From Streptomyces sp. ICC1 (GTDB taxonomy: Bacteria; Actinomycetota; Actinomycetes; Streptomycetales; Streptomycetaceae), in assembly GCF_003287935.1 (NCBI RefSeq), contig NZ_CP030287.1:1984001-2048000 (forward strand): a stretch of DNA of 64,000 nt. The letters are read 5' to 3'. The notes beneath the pieces were generated by a model. That model did not search any database. It was not told where the DNA came from and saw only the letters and a program-made list of their open reading frames with translations. A program made the translations under genes and the position numbers. Positions 22,201-63,456 of the stretch are shown one piece after another. How positions within the stretch are numbered: the stretch's first letter is position 1; the number at the start of each line of letters is the position of its first letter.

Positions 22201-24726
22201 ATGAGCGAGCACCGCCGCAAACAGCAGCAGCCCCAGGGTGGGGGCCGCGCCGCTGCCCGCCGGGCTGCCCAGCAGCGCCCCGGACGGGGTGCCGAGTCCG
22301 GACGCGACGTGCCCACCGCGTCGCCCAGCGGACCGTACGGGGACGAGCCGGGGCACGGCAGCAGCCGTGCGGACGGCCGCAGATCCGCCGGCCGAGGCAC
22401 GGCGGGACGGGGCCGGGGCGCCGCCCAGGCCGGACGCGGCACGGGCCGCCCGGACAAGCGGTTCATCAACTACCCGCGCTCGGACAGGGACGGCTGGAAG
22501 CGCTTCGTCCCGTCCTGGAAGCTCGTGGGCGGCACGGCCCTGGGCTTCTTCGCGATCATCACGGCAGGTGCCGGCATCGGCATCGCCTCGGTGAACACGC
22601 CGGACGCGAACAAGATGGCCGAGGCGCAGAACAACGTCTTCTACTGGGCCGACGACACCCAGATGGTCGCGACCGGCGGGTCCGTCAACCGCCAGATCGT
22701 GCCCATCGGCAAGATCCCCCGGTCGATGCAGAACGCCGTGATCGCCGCGGAGAACGAGTCCTTCGAGTCGGACAAGGGCGTCGACCCGATGGGCATCACC
22801 CGTGCCGTGTGGAACATGGCCAAGGGCGGATCCACCCAGGGCGGCTCGACGATCACCCAGCAGTACGTGAAGAACACGTACCTGGACTCCGACCAGACGC
22901 TCAAGCGCAAGGTCACCGAGCTCTTCATCTCGATAAAGCTCGGTGTCACCGCGGAGAAGAACACGATCCTCGCGGGCTACCTCAACACCGCCTACTACGG
23001 GCGTGACGCCTACGGGATCCAGGCGGCCTCCCGGGCCTACTTCGGGAAGGACTGCCAGGACCTGACCCCGTCCGAGGGCGCCTTCCTGGCTTCGGTGCTG
23101 AAGGGTCCCAACCTCTACAACCCGGACGGCGGCATCGGCACCGCGGCCACGCCCGAGCTGAACACCGCGCGAGCCCAGGAGCGCTGGGCCTGGGTCCTGG
23201 ACCGCGAGGTCAAGGTCGGCCGCATGCAGCAGGCCGAGCGGGACCAGTACAAGGAGTTCCCCAAGCTCATCGAGTCGGCGCAGGCCCGCAACATGTCCGG
23301 GCAGATCGGCTACATGGTCGACACGGCCAAGGCCTACGTCATGAAGACCGCGAACCTCACGGTCGACGACCTGGCCAAGGGCGGCTACCAGATCCACACC
23401 ACCTTCGAGAAGCCTCGGGTCGACGCGCTGGTCAAGGCCGTCGAGGAGACCCGCGACCGGATCATCGACGAGAAGAAGCGGCCCGAGACGGACACCTTCG
23501 TCCAGTTCGGCGCGGCCTCGGTGGACGTGAAGACCGGAGCCCTCGTCGCCCTGTACGGCGGTCCCGGCATGGACAAGAAGCACTTCAACAACAACGCCAA
23601 CACCTCGGGTGTCCAGGTCGGCTCGACCTGGAAGCCCTTCGTGCTGGCGGCGGCCATGCAGTACGGCACCCAGAACTCCAGCGGCGCGGGGATCTCGGCC
23701 GACAGCAAGTACATGGCCAACGACCTCACGGTGATCAACAACCGTGACGGCCAGCCGCTGCGCGACAAGGCCGGCAAGCCGTTCAAGCAGAAGAACGAGA
23801 GCCCGACCGCCTACGGCTACGTGACCCTGAACGAGGCGATGGAGAAGTCCATCAACGTTCCGTTCGCCCAGCTCGTCTTCGATGTCGGCCACAGCAAGGT
23901 CAGGGAAGTCGCCAAGGCCACGGGCATCCTCGAGGAGTCGATGGACCCGAACGCCAACGCCTCCTTCGCGCTCGGCACCTCGACCCCCAGCGCCATCCGG
24001 ATGGCCGACTCGTACGCCACCTTCGCCGCCTCGGGCACCCACCACGAGCCGTTCTCGGTGCGCAGCGTCCAGCGCGACGGCAAGGACCTGGCGAACTTCG
24101 AGGCCCCCAAGGCGCAGCAGGCCATGGACAATCTGATCGCGGACAACATCACCAAGGTCCTCCAGAACGTCGTGGAGAACGGCACCGGCAAGAAGGCCAA
24201 GGGCCTGAACCGGCCGGCCGCCGGCAAGACCGGTACCACCGATGAGAACATGTCGGCCTGGTTCGTCGGCTACACGCCCGAGCTGTCCACCTCCGTGACC
24301 CTGTTCCGCTCGGACCCCGCCGCGCAGAAGAAGGAACTGATCTCCATGAAGGGCGTGGCCGGCATCCCGTCGCTCCACGGTGGAGACATCCCGGCCGAGA
24401 TCTGGACGAAGTACATGAAGGACGCGCTCGACGGGGTCCCGGTGAAGGACTTCCCGGAGCCGGACAAGATCCCTGTCATCGCGGACGCCTCCGGTGCCCC
24501 CTCCCCCAGTCCCTCGATCACCCCCCCCTGGAGCGCGCCCCCGTCGCCGTCACCGCCCCGGACGGATCCGCCCGCCCGGCCGTCACCTGCGACCCCGACG
24601 GGCCCCTCGTGGCCGAGGTCGTCAAGACCTCCTCCGACCCCTACGTCGGCCGCGTCTCCCTCGTCCGCGTCTTCTCCGGGACCCTGCGCCCCGACGAGAC
24701 CGTCCACGTCAGCGGCCACGGGCTGA
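22201..24726 (+). CDS. Class A penicillin-binding protein (C-terminal end chimeric)
   Basis: A bifunctional wall synthase. A basic, Gly/Arg-rich cytoplasmic N-terminus (about 105 residues) leads to one membrane segment (about 110-130). The glycosyltransferase GT51 domain carries AVIAAENESFESDKGVDPMG and GGSTITQQYVKN. The transpeptidase domain has the serine motif GSTWKPF, the SxN motif EKSINVPF and KTGTT. The authentic sequence reaches about residue 775 (ASGAPSPSPS). After the poly-C run at 24521-24528 the frame reads out-of-frame EF-G DNA until 24726, so the last ~65 residues are not a natural PBP tail. A GAGGAG precedes ATG 22201. Confidence 0.9.
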   Translation: MSEHRRKQQQPQGGGRAAARRAAQQRPGRGAESGRDVPTASPSGPYGDEPGHGSSRADGRRSAGRGTAGRGRGAAQAGRGTGRPDKRFINYPRSDRDGWKRFVPSWKLVGGTALGFFAIITAGAGIGIASVNTPDANKMAEAQNNVFYWADDTQMVATGGSVNRQIVPIGKIPRSMQNAVIAAENESFESDKGVDPMGITRAVWNMAKGGSTQGGSTITQQYVKNTYLDSDQTLKRKVTELFISIKLGVTAEKNTILAGYLNTAYYGRDAYGIQAASRAYFGKDCQDLTPSEGAFLASVLKGPNLYNPDGGIGTAATPELNTARAQERWAWVLDREVKVGRMQQAERDQYKEFPKLIESAQARNMSGQIGYMVDTAKAYVMKTANLTVDDLAKGGYQIHTTFEKPRVDALVKAVEETRDRIIDEKKRPETDTFVQFGAASVDVKTGALVALYGGPGMDKKHFNNNANTSGVQVGSTWKPFVLAAAMQYGTQNSSGAGISADSKYMANDLTVINNRDGQPLRDKAGKPFKQKNESPTAYGYVTLNEAMEKSINVPFAQLVFDVGHSKVREVAKATGILEESMDPNANASFALGTSTPSAIRMADSYATFAASGTHHEPFSVRSVQRDGKDLANFEAPKAQQAMDNLIADNITKVLQNVVENGTGKKAKGLNRPAAGKTGTTDENMSAWFVGYTPELSTSVTLFRSDPAAQKKELISMKGVAGIPSLHGGDIPAEIWTKYMKDALDGVPVKDFPEPDKIPVIADASGAPSPSPSITPPWSAPPSPSPPRTDPPARPSPATPTGPSWPRSSRPPPTPTSAASPSSASSPGPCAPTRPSTSAATG

Positions 24727-25799
24727 CCGACCGGGGGCACGAGGACCACGATGTCGACGAGCGCGTCGGCGCCCTCACCTCCCCCTTCGGCAAACAGCAG
24801 CGCAGCCTCCCCCACTGCATCGCCGGCGATCTGGCCTGCGTGGCCAAACTCACCCGCGCCGAGACCGGCGACACCCTCTCCGGCAAGGACCGGCCCCTCC
24901 TGATGGAGGCCTGGCCGATGCCCGATCCGCTCCTCCCCCTCGCCATCGAGGCCCACAGCAAGGCCGACGAGGACAAGCTCTCGCAGGGCCTGGCCCGGCT
25001 CGTCGCCGAGGACCCCACCATGCGGCTCGAACAGAACCCGCACACCCGCCAGCTCGTCCTGTGGTGCCTCGGCGAAGCCCACCAGGACCTCGCCCTCGAA
25101 CGGCTGCGCACCCGCTACGGGGTCCAGGTCGACCCCGTCCCCCACAAGGTCAGCCTCCGCGAGACCTTCGGCGCCAAGGCCGCCGGCCGCGGCCGGCACG
25201 TCAAACAGTCCGGCGGGCACGGCCAGTTCGCCATCTGCGAGATCGAGGTCGAGCCGCTGGCGCCCGGCAGCGGCATCGAGTTCGTCGACCGGGTCGTCGG
25301 CGGAGCCGTTCCCCGGCAGTTCATCCCCTCCGTGGAGAAGGGCGTCCGCGCGCAGGCCGCCCGGGGGATCTCGGCCGGCTATCCGCTGGTCGACGTACGC
25401 GTCACCCTGCTCGACGGCAAGGCCCACTCGGTGGACTCCTCCGACGCCGCCTTCCAGACCGCCGGCGCCCTCGCCCTGCGCGAGGCCGCCGCCGAGGCCT
25501 CCCTCCACCTCCTCGAACCGGTCGCCGAGCTCGCCGTCCTCGTCCCCGACGAGTACGTCGGCCCCGTCATGAGCGACCTCGCGGGCCGCCGCGGCCGCGT
25601 CATCGGCTCCGACCAGGCCGGTCCGGGCCGCACCCGCGTCCTCGCCGAGATCCCCGAGATCGAGATCGGCCGGTACGCCGTCGAACTGCGCTCCGTGTCG
25701 CACGGCACGGGCCTGTTCAGCCGGGCGTACGCCCGGCACGAGCCCATGCCGCCACAGATAGCGGACAAGCTTCGCGAAAAGACCGAGAAGGGAACGTAA
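24528..25799 (+). pseudogene. EF-G-like translation factor (EF-G2 type), N-terminal GTPase domain missing
   Basis: The frame from 24528 encodes domains II to V of an EF-G-like factor: PDGPLVAEVVKTSSDPYVGR (domain II), QNPHTRQLVLWCLGEAHQDL (III), KVSLRETFGAKAAGRGRHVK and GHGQFAICEIEVEPL (IV), EYVGPVMSDLAGRRGRVIGS (V). The whole G domain (about 300 residues, with GHxxSGKTT, DTPG and switch motifs) is absent; upstream DNA belongs to a penicillin-binding protein. A GTG at 24609 could start a 396-residue remnant. Without GTPase it cannot act as a translocase. The break at poly-C looks like a chimeric join or a deletion. Confidence 0.85.
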
Positions 25800-50302: not shown

Positions 50303-50517
50303 GGCGGTGCGGCTCCTGATGCAGCGGTCGTCGTGCTGTCTTGCCGCTGCGGCACTGGAGCGGCGGGGTGGTGCGGCGGGGTGGTGCGGTGCGCCGCGTG
50401 GTGCTGACGTGCGGGTTCTCGTGCGGGTCCACGATACGGCCCGGCGGGTGCGGGGGCGCGGGCCGGGCCCTGCGGGCGGCTTTCCCCACCCCGCCCCTTC
50501 CCGGAACCGGGAGCGGA

Positions 50518-61536: not shown

Positions 61537-63456
61537 ATGTCTGTCATGGGTCGCTCGCTGCTCAGGGCCGCCGCCGAGGCGTTCGGCGGGGGTGTCCTCG
61601 TCCTGCTGGCGTTCGGGCTCATCGACCAGGTCGGCGGCGGCCTGCCGGTCCACACCAAGGCGGTGGTCGCGCTCGCCGCGCTGGTCCTGTTCGTCGTACG
61701 GCGCCGCTTTCCGGAGGCGGCACTGCTCGGCATGGGAGTGCTGCTCGGGGTGATGTCCTGCCTCGGAGTCCTGATGGCGGTGACCGCCTACGCGGTCGCC
61801 CACCAGCTGGCCGGGGCCGGGCGCAGGGCCGCCGTGCTGTTCGGGGCCGGGGCGCTCACCGTGCTCACGGCGGGCGCGACGGTCCACCGCCAGGGCTTCG
61901 GCTCCTGGCAGTACGGGCTCACCCTCGGCGGGGTCCTCGCCGCGGTCGCCGTCCTGGTACCCGGTCTGGTCGGGGCTTCCGCCGGGCAGCAGCAGCGGCT
62001 CCTCGCCGCCCTGCGCGAGCGCGCCGCCGCCGCCGAGGAGAACCGCCGGCTCGCCGAGAGCGAGTCCCGCATCCACGAGCGGTCCCGCATCGCGGCCGAG
62101 ATGCACGACCTCGTCGGACACCGGCTCAGCCTGATCTCCCTGCACGCCGGCGGCCTCGAGATGGCGCTGCGCGGCCGGGCCGGCGAAGACGCCGGCGAAC
62201 TGCGCGAGAGCGCGGGCCAGGTGCGCCAGGCCACCCGCGACGCCATGCACGAGCTGCGCGAGGCGCTCGGGGTGCTGGGGCCGCTGTCCCGCGACACCGG
62301 AACCGACGCGCTGACCGACGCCACCGGGACCCGGGCCGACATCGAGGCGCTGGTCGCCGAGTCCCGTGCGGGCGGGGTCCGCATCGGCTTCGGTTGGACC
62401 GGGCCCGACACCGTCGACCGCGAACCGCGGGTGCGGCGGGCGGTGCACCGGGTCGTGCGCGAGGCCCTGACGAATGTGCACCGGTACGCGGCCGGTGCGC
62501 CGGTGGAGGTGCGGATCGAGCACACCGCCGACTCCGTCGAGGTCTCCGTGGCCAACGGGGCCGCCCCGGTGCGGCCGCCGGGCGCGGGGGACGCGGCGGC
62601 CGAGGCCGGCACCGGCCGCGGCCTGAGCGGGCTGCGCGAGCGGGTCGCCCTGCTCGGCGGCGACCTGGCCGCCGGGCCGGGGCCCGCCGGGGGCTTCGCC
62701 GTGCGGGCCCGGCTGCCGGCCGTCCCCCCGACGGCGGCGCAGACCGACGCGGAACGCGCGCAGACCCGTACGCCGGGTACCGCGGGCGCGGCCGCCCGGC
62801 GGCTGCGGCGGGCCCCGCTGCTGATCCCGCTCGCCCAGGCGGCCTCCGGGCTGCTCGTCCTGGCCGGCATCGGGGCCACCTTGATGTTCGGCCTGCAACT
62901 GGTCGGCCACGCCCGGCCGCTGGACTACTCCCCGCCGCGGCCGCCGGAACCGGGGATGACCCGGCAGCAGGTCGAGGCCGCCGGCGTCTACGACGAGAGG
63001 ATGGCCCGCGCCGCGGCCGCCGGGCACGAGCCGGTGCGGCCGGCGGGTACGGGCGACTGCCTGTACCCGTACAGCCGGGACACCGTCGGCCGGGACCGGC
63101 TGGAGCTCACCCGGTACTGCTTCCGTGGCGATATTTTGATCGAAATCACCCGATTCGAGGTGCCGATGGTGCCCGCAACCCTCTCCCCGTCCCCCTGTCT
63201 CCTATACACCTCTCCGAGCCCGTGTGGGGGAGCTGTTGGGTCGGCTCACTGCCGGGTGCCGGCGTCGACGGCAGCTGCTGGGTCACCGGCTCGGCGACCG
63301 TGGGAACCTCGGGGGCCTCGGAGGCAGGAGCGGCCACCGGGGGTGCGGGCGGGGCCGCGGGGGGCGTCGGGGCCGCGGTGCCCTCGTTCTCGGTGCTCAC
63401 AGCGCTCTCTCCTCGTCACACACGGCTTCAGAAATACTGGCGATCGGTCCGACTGA
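61537..63456 (+). CDS. Sensor histidine kinase (NarL-type partner), 3' end corrupted
   Basis: ATG 61537 lies 7 nt after GATAAT, leaderless geometry. The N-terminal half holds about five membrane helices (residues 10-150), then the HisKA_3 dimerisation box with the phospho-His (RIAAEMHDLVGHRLSLISLH) and an HATPase domain (VVREALTNVHRYAAGAPV, GRGLSGLRERVALLGG). A further membrane helix and a ~100-residue outer part (CLYPYSRDTVGRDRLELTRY) follow. Reliable sequence ends about 63190. After that the frame translates an adapter-like segment (CLLYTSPSP) and antisense of another gene to 63456. The cognate response regulator is not found downstream. Confidence 0.85.
   Translation: MSVMGRSLLRAAAEAFGGGVLVLLAFGLIDQVGGGLPVHTKAVVALAALVLFVVRRRFPEAALLGMGVLLGVMSCLGVLMAVTAYAVAHQLAGAGRRAAVLFGAGALTVLTAGATVHRQGFGSWQYGLTLGGVLAAVAVLVPGLVGASAGQQQRLLAALRERAAAAEENRRLAESESRIHERSRIAAEMHDLVGHRLSLISLHAGGLEMALRGRAGEDAGELRESAGQVRQATRDAMHELREALGVLGPLSRDTGTDALTDATGTRADIEALVAESRAGGVRIGFGWTGPDTVDREPRVRRAVHRVVREALTNVHRYAAGAPVEVRIEHTADSVEVSVANGAAPVRPPGAGDAAAEAGTGRGLSGLRERVALLGGDLAAGPGPAGGFAVRARLPAVPPTAAQTDAERAQTRTPGTAGAAARRLRRAPLLIPLAQAASGLLVLAGIGATLMFGLQLVGHARPLDYSPPRPPEPGMTRQQVEAAGVYDERMARAAAAGHEPVRPAGTGDCLYPYSRDTVGRDRLELTRYCFRGDILIEITRFEVPMVPATLSPSPCLLYTSPSPCGGAVGSAHCRVPASTAAAGSPARRPWEPRGPRRQERPPGVRAGPRGASGPRCPRSRCSQRSLLVTHGFRNTGDRSD
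63195..63221. other. Nextera transposase adapter-like sequence (artefact)
   Basis: The 27 bases consist of CTGTCTC, C, TATACAC, C, TCTCCGAGCCC. The Illumina Nextera read-2 adapter has T and A at the two single positions, so 25 of 27 bases agree. Translation gives CLLYTSPSP, a peptide known as an adapter contaminant in protein databases. It marks a probable false join. Confidence 0.85.
63222..63400 (-). CDS. N-terminus of a probable HtrA/DegP-type serine protease (truncated)
   Basis: A GTG at 63400 starts MSTENEGTAAPTPPAAPPAP, continuing as a Pro/Ala-rich region ending TQQLPHT at the adapter-like segment. Streptomycete trypsin-like HtrA proteases with a PDZ domain start this way and often lie beside a glycerophosphodiester phosphodiesterase gene, as here. 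Everything after residue ~60, including any membrane and protease domain, is missing. The family call rests on this start and the neighbour, so it is tentative. Confidence 0.55.

Follow-up and report, generated by a model that had tools for sequence, protein, structure and literature searches.

A penicillin-binding protein (PBP) gene and the gene for an elongation factor G-like protein (EF-G2) run into one another within a run of eight cytosines in the genome assembly examined here (G000), which raises the question of whether the fusion is carried by the organism or was made during assembly. The window analysed is a 64-kb stretch of DNA (G000:C1:1984001-2048000) from a single contig of 9,034,319 bases. 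Its features around the joint are:

22201..24524, + strand: class A PBP cut in its C-terminal tail (homology and domains)
24521..24528, no strand: candidate seam 1, PBP contig to EF-G2 contig (C8 run and homology switch)
24523..25799, + strand: 3' part of EF-G2, domains II-V, lacking the 5' part (homology, NCBIfam and Pfam)

The PBP open reading frame (22201-24726, 841 aa) carries Transgly and Transpeptidase domains (Pfam). Its homology to the draft genome G216 (94% over 1025 bases) stops at 24524, and homology to EF-G2 begins at 24523, at 94% identity in G216, 90% in G053, 88% in G090 and 89% in G061. The switch from one gene to the other falls at 24523-24524, within the C8 run present at 24521-24528, and the C run is shared at the joint. 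A sequence-only reading had considered the PBP frame authentic to about 24520, the C8 run the point of joining and the remainder of the PBP frame a nonsense tail, and this agrees with the homology limits and with the reading frame, which passes the joint and ends at 24726. A full-length, tail-bearing PBP homologue reads through in G216, and the EF-G2 locus of that genome lies on a different contig from its PBP locus. The suggestion that the genes downstream of the joint come from a distant locus is right. A query of 340 bases spanning the joint found matches in 388 of 392 genomes of the genus, with G000 itself at 614 bits (E 4.5e-176). The same fusion, which the sequence-only reading had proposed to look for in other assemblies, occurred in none of the 391 other genomes, the best E-value (3.4e-73) belonging to a match of one half; best E-values per genome cover all 392, and single matches are those among the matches listed. 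Repeat-mediated recombination was considered and rejected, as the interval scanned (24400-24700) has just short, imperfect repeats, direct ones of 8 and 15 nt and inverted ones of 8-20 nt, and the C run forms an arm in only one 20-nt inverted pair of 75% identity.

Downstream of the joint, the frame at 24609-25799 matches NF009377, 'elongation factor G-like protein EF-G2' (NCBIfam). It resembles that family in domains II-V, covering profile positions 311-699 of 700 only, and differs in scoring 720.5 bits, below the curated cut-off of 890 for a full-length member; this shortfall stems from the absence of 378 bp and from a GTPase part located 1.2 Mb off in the assembly. Pfam recognises EF-G domains II, III and IV and the C-terminus in this frame and no GTPase domain, in keeping with the earlier description of the gene. 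EF-G2 residues 8-185 (from a 315-residue query) are encoded at G000:813512-814045 on the minus strand, 1.2 Mb from the part in the window. A search of G000 for the 378 bp between the halves gave nothing but the flanks on either side and matches that were short and weak. Where the 5' half breaks off, it abuts a degraded Nextera adapter (24/33 positions) at 813.5 kb, beside a tRNA-Ser gene. By our own reading of the frame, the 5' part also adjoins a CDP-alcohol phosphatidyltransferase-like frame. Integrases use the 3' end of tRNA genes. The tRNA-Ser at 813.4 kb was rejected as an integration hotspot, the seam lying 5' of the tRNA gene (minus strand, L034 10356-10441) and the gap being adapter-like. 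Comparison with close relatives, also proposed by the sequence-only reading, yielded EF-G2 in 17 of 20 genomes, at 69-86% identity and as part of open frames 641-867 aa long, besides the complete PBP of G216; G005, G008 and G010 gave paralogue-level matches or fragments only. The organism most likely has an EF-G2 with its GTPase domain, as its relatives do, and the window warrants no conclusion about a GTPase-less factor.

The PBP gene also has its missing end elsewhere. The PBP contig would end in a GC-rich, repetitive stretch of the tail, which resumes at G000:2382.27 kb (L032:6270), ahead of rpsF, with 36 bp absent between the two parts. The only rpsF match in G000 (2386941-2387210) lies behind this resumed tail, 378 kb from the joint on the same strand. 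Immediately before the tail (L032 5967-6284, G000:2381966-2382283) is an 84-base piece followed directly by a 234-base piece. The former is identical at 82 of 84 positions to G000:3962326-3962409 (minus strand) and the latter at 224 of 234 to G000:6879621-6879854. All 10 mismatches of the longer piece are confined to its final 107 bases, on the side of the PBP tail, and the preceding 127 bases are identical to their counterpart; such clustering is better explained by a poor contig end than by age. As in relatives, the PBP of the organism most likely has a normal tail.

Two further switches of homology occur in the window:

50370..50511, no strand: candidate seam 2, G216 C34 to C39, G090 1.666 to 2.971 Mb (match switch)
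63174..63221, no strand: candidate seam 3, G216 C39 / G090 2.949 Mb to G216 C80 / G090 4.147 Mb (match switch)
63195..63228, + strand: degraded Nextera adapter in seam 3 (27/34 positions)

The 64-kb window thus holds three seams, spaced 26 and 13 kb apart. In seam 2, some 140 GC-rich bases go unmatched; 65-68 bases that match weakly (76%) at 50405-50469 may still be part of its left side. The blocks flanking seam 3 are 1.2 Mb apart in G090, and the adapter there runs with its final bases into the beginning of the block that follows. No N spacer separates the sequences at the five seams examined, and adapter was found in two of the five. No adapter could be recognised at seams 1 and 2 or at the one before the PBP tail, where the best scores were 15-17 of 33-34.

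Gene order was compared using forty 150-base markers from G000, searched in G090 (2 contigs), G061 (2 contigs) and G012 (1 contig); G216 and G053 are drafts. Clear places were obtained for 19, 16 and 10 markers, respectively, the remainder having no clear hit, being multicopy, lying on a second contig or being weak, and one being ambiguous at 1050 kb. Rank correlations (rho) of G000 were 0.08 against G090 (n = 19), -0.11 against G061 (16) and 0.05 against G012 (10). With G090 as reference, G061 gave -1.0 (16 markers) and G012 gave 1.0 (10). Retaining the ambiguous marker changed the G000 values to 0.06 (20) and -0.14 (17), and that of G090 versus G061 to -0.81 (17). The order of G000 is random against these three collinear genomes, and it is scrambled in blocks of tens of kb.

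The rRNA genes are also depleted. G000 has a single 16S copy, compared with 7 in G061 and G090, 6 in G012 and G009, and 5 in G007, and no 23S gene was found by Rfam within 20 kb around it. The right end of G000 (L135 19396-20000) consists of two tandem pieces of about 302 bases that match the end of the 16S gene and the spacer region of G061 at 83-84%, and no similarity was found between the right and left ends. The assembly is nonetheless rated 100% complete, with 1.19% contamination.

Remnants of library adapters were sought using the adapter sequence, including the 19-bp Nextera transposon end, as printed in PMC3906532. Allowing up to 3 mismatches, the transposon end occurs 162 times in G000 and not at all in ten other genomes; the reversed pattern, used as a control, occurs a single time in each of G000, G061, G090 and G012. 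The exact end is absent among the matches listed for G000, as it should be if trimming had removed the perfect copies. The 92 matches with up to 2 mismatches are spread at 2-6 per Mb over the first 6 Mb, rising to 15, 21 and 28 in the following ones, and 6 fall within the final 34 kb; this is the pattern expected if contigs were placed roughly from long to short. Among 20 adapter loci that were read, several continue into the rest of the adapter and others do not. At L216, all 15 bases after the transposon end are correct for the adapter, and the complete adapter is followed there by TAGGCATG, which we take to be a Nextera i7 index. Runs of N directly follow adapter-like ends in G000 at L135 13894-13945, L202 and L203; another, at L031 103-134, follows a stretch that resembles adapter. 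These may be masked adapter, although withheld sequence is likewise written as N. Control DNA of relatives reached maximal scores of 20 (638,806 positions) and 21 (638,768) for the two adapters. Two other positions in the window score 22 of 33-34, so the adapter score is not absolute on its own.

We have very little doubt that the PBP/EF-G2 fusion is an assembly seam, an artefact instead of biology. Contigs assembled from Illumina Nextera short reads would have been set end to end, probably roughly longest first, in an order that does not reflect the real chromosome. The contig carrying the PBP would have ended in the GC-rich repetitive tail of that gene, and the one placed after it would have started inside EF-G2. 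In the living cell, PBP and EF-G2 probably each occupy a locus of their own and are intact, like those of relatives. The sequence-only reading had allowed for either a misassembly or a real rearrangement. The former is strongly supported by the random order, the single 16S gene, the adapter remnants, the other seams and the pieces missing at both broken genes, and the latter is not supported.

A real rearrangement would have joined the PBP to the 3' part of EF-G2 by end joining at C-rich microhomology, with small deletions. The 36 and 378 bp lost from the two genes are compatible with such an event, the shared C8 run could have served as its microhomology, and this joint is free of adapter. 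Against it stand the random order genome-wide, the single 16S gene and the adapter that adjoins the second EF-G2 half where it is broken, and we regard such an event as very improbable. Equally slight is the chance of what it would have produced, namely a PBP whose tail is new and an EF-G2 remnant lacking the GTPase part, with the joint physically present in the strain within an otherwise badly assembled genome. Other real events were also entertained. An inversion or transposition, with several breaks, was suggested by rpsF 378 kb away and by the 5' part of EF-G2, which is found at 813 kb in opposite orientation, and templated insertion by the short pieces before the PBP tail. All three were dropped because the order is random, the 16S gene is single and adapters were found.

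A chromosome shattered and rejoined as in chromothripsis, with this joint as one of many, would accommodate the order scrambled in blocks of tens of kb, and also the fragments from two other loci that sit right at the PBP-tail joint. Reshuffling, however, would not cut the 16S genes to one copy, adapter would not be expected at joints, nor would a sequence ending in rRNA-spacer fragments, and the 234-base piece has all its mismatches on the side facing the seam, which fits a poor contig end. This explanation is the least credible of those weighed, with hardly any probability left to it. The points that count against an artefact are the seams without adapter, the C8 run as possible microhomology, the two further window positions with an adapter score of 22 and the completeness of 100%; our near-certainty that the fusion is an artefact stands because these contrary points leave the genome-wide facts unexplained.

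Gene fusions, truncations and neighbourhoods in G000 can therefore be false, and users of the sequence should be warned that its seams are not marked by N. Counting 16S copies and scanning for the Nextera transposon end is a quick check that exposes G000 and can be applied to other 'one-contig' genomes. The literature matches listed for adapter contamination in bacterial assemblies held nothing on this strain or on such a Streptomyces record. Concatenated contigs of a short-read draft, shown as one sequence and with Nextera carry-over, are a known type of artefact. G000 resembles such a draft in its random order, collapsed rRNA genes, adapters at seams and genes cut with bits missing. It differs from one in nothing that was tested, and the three adapter-free seams are compatible with trimmed contig ends.
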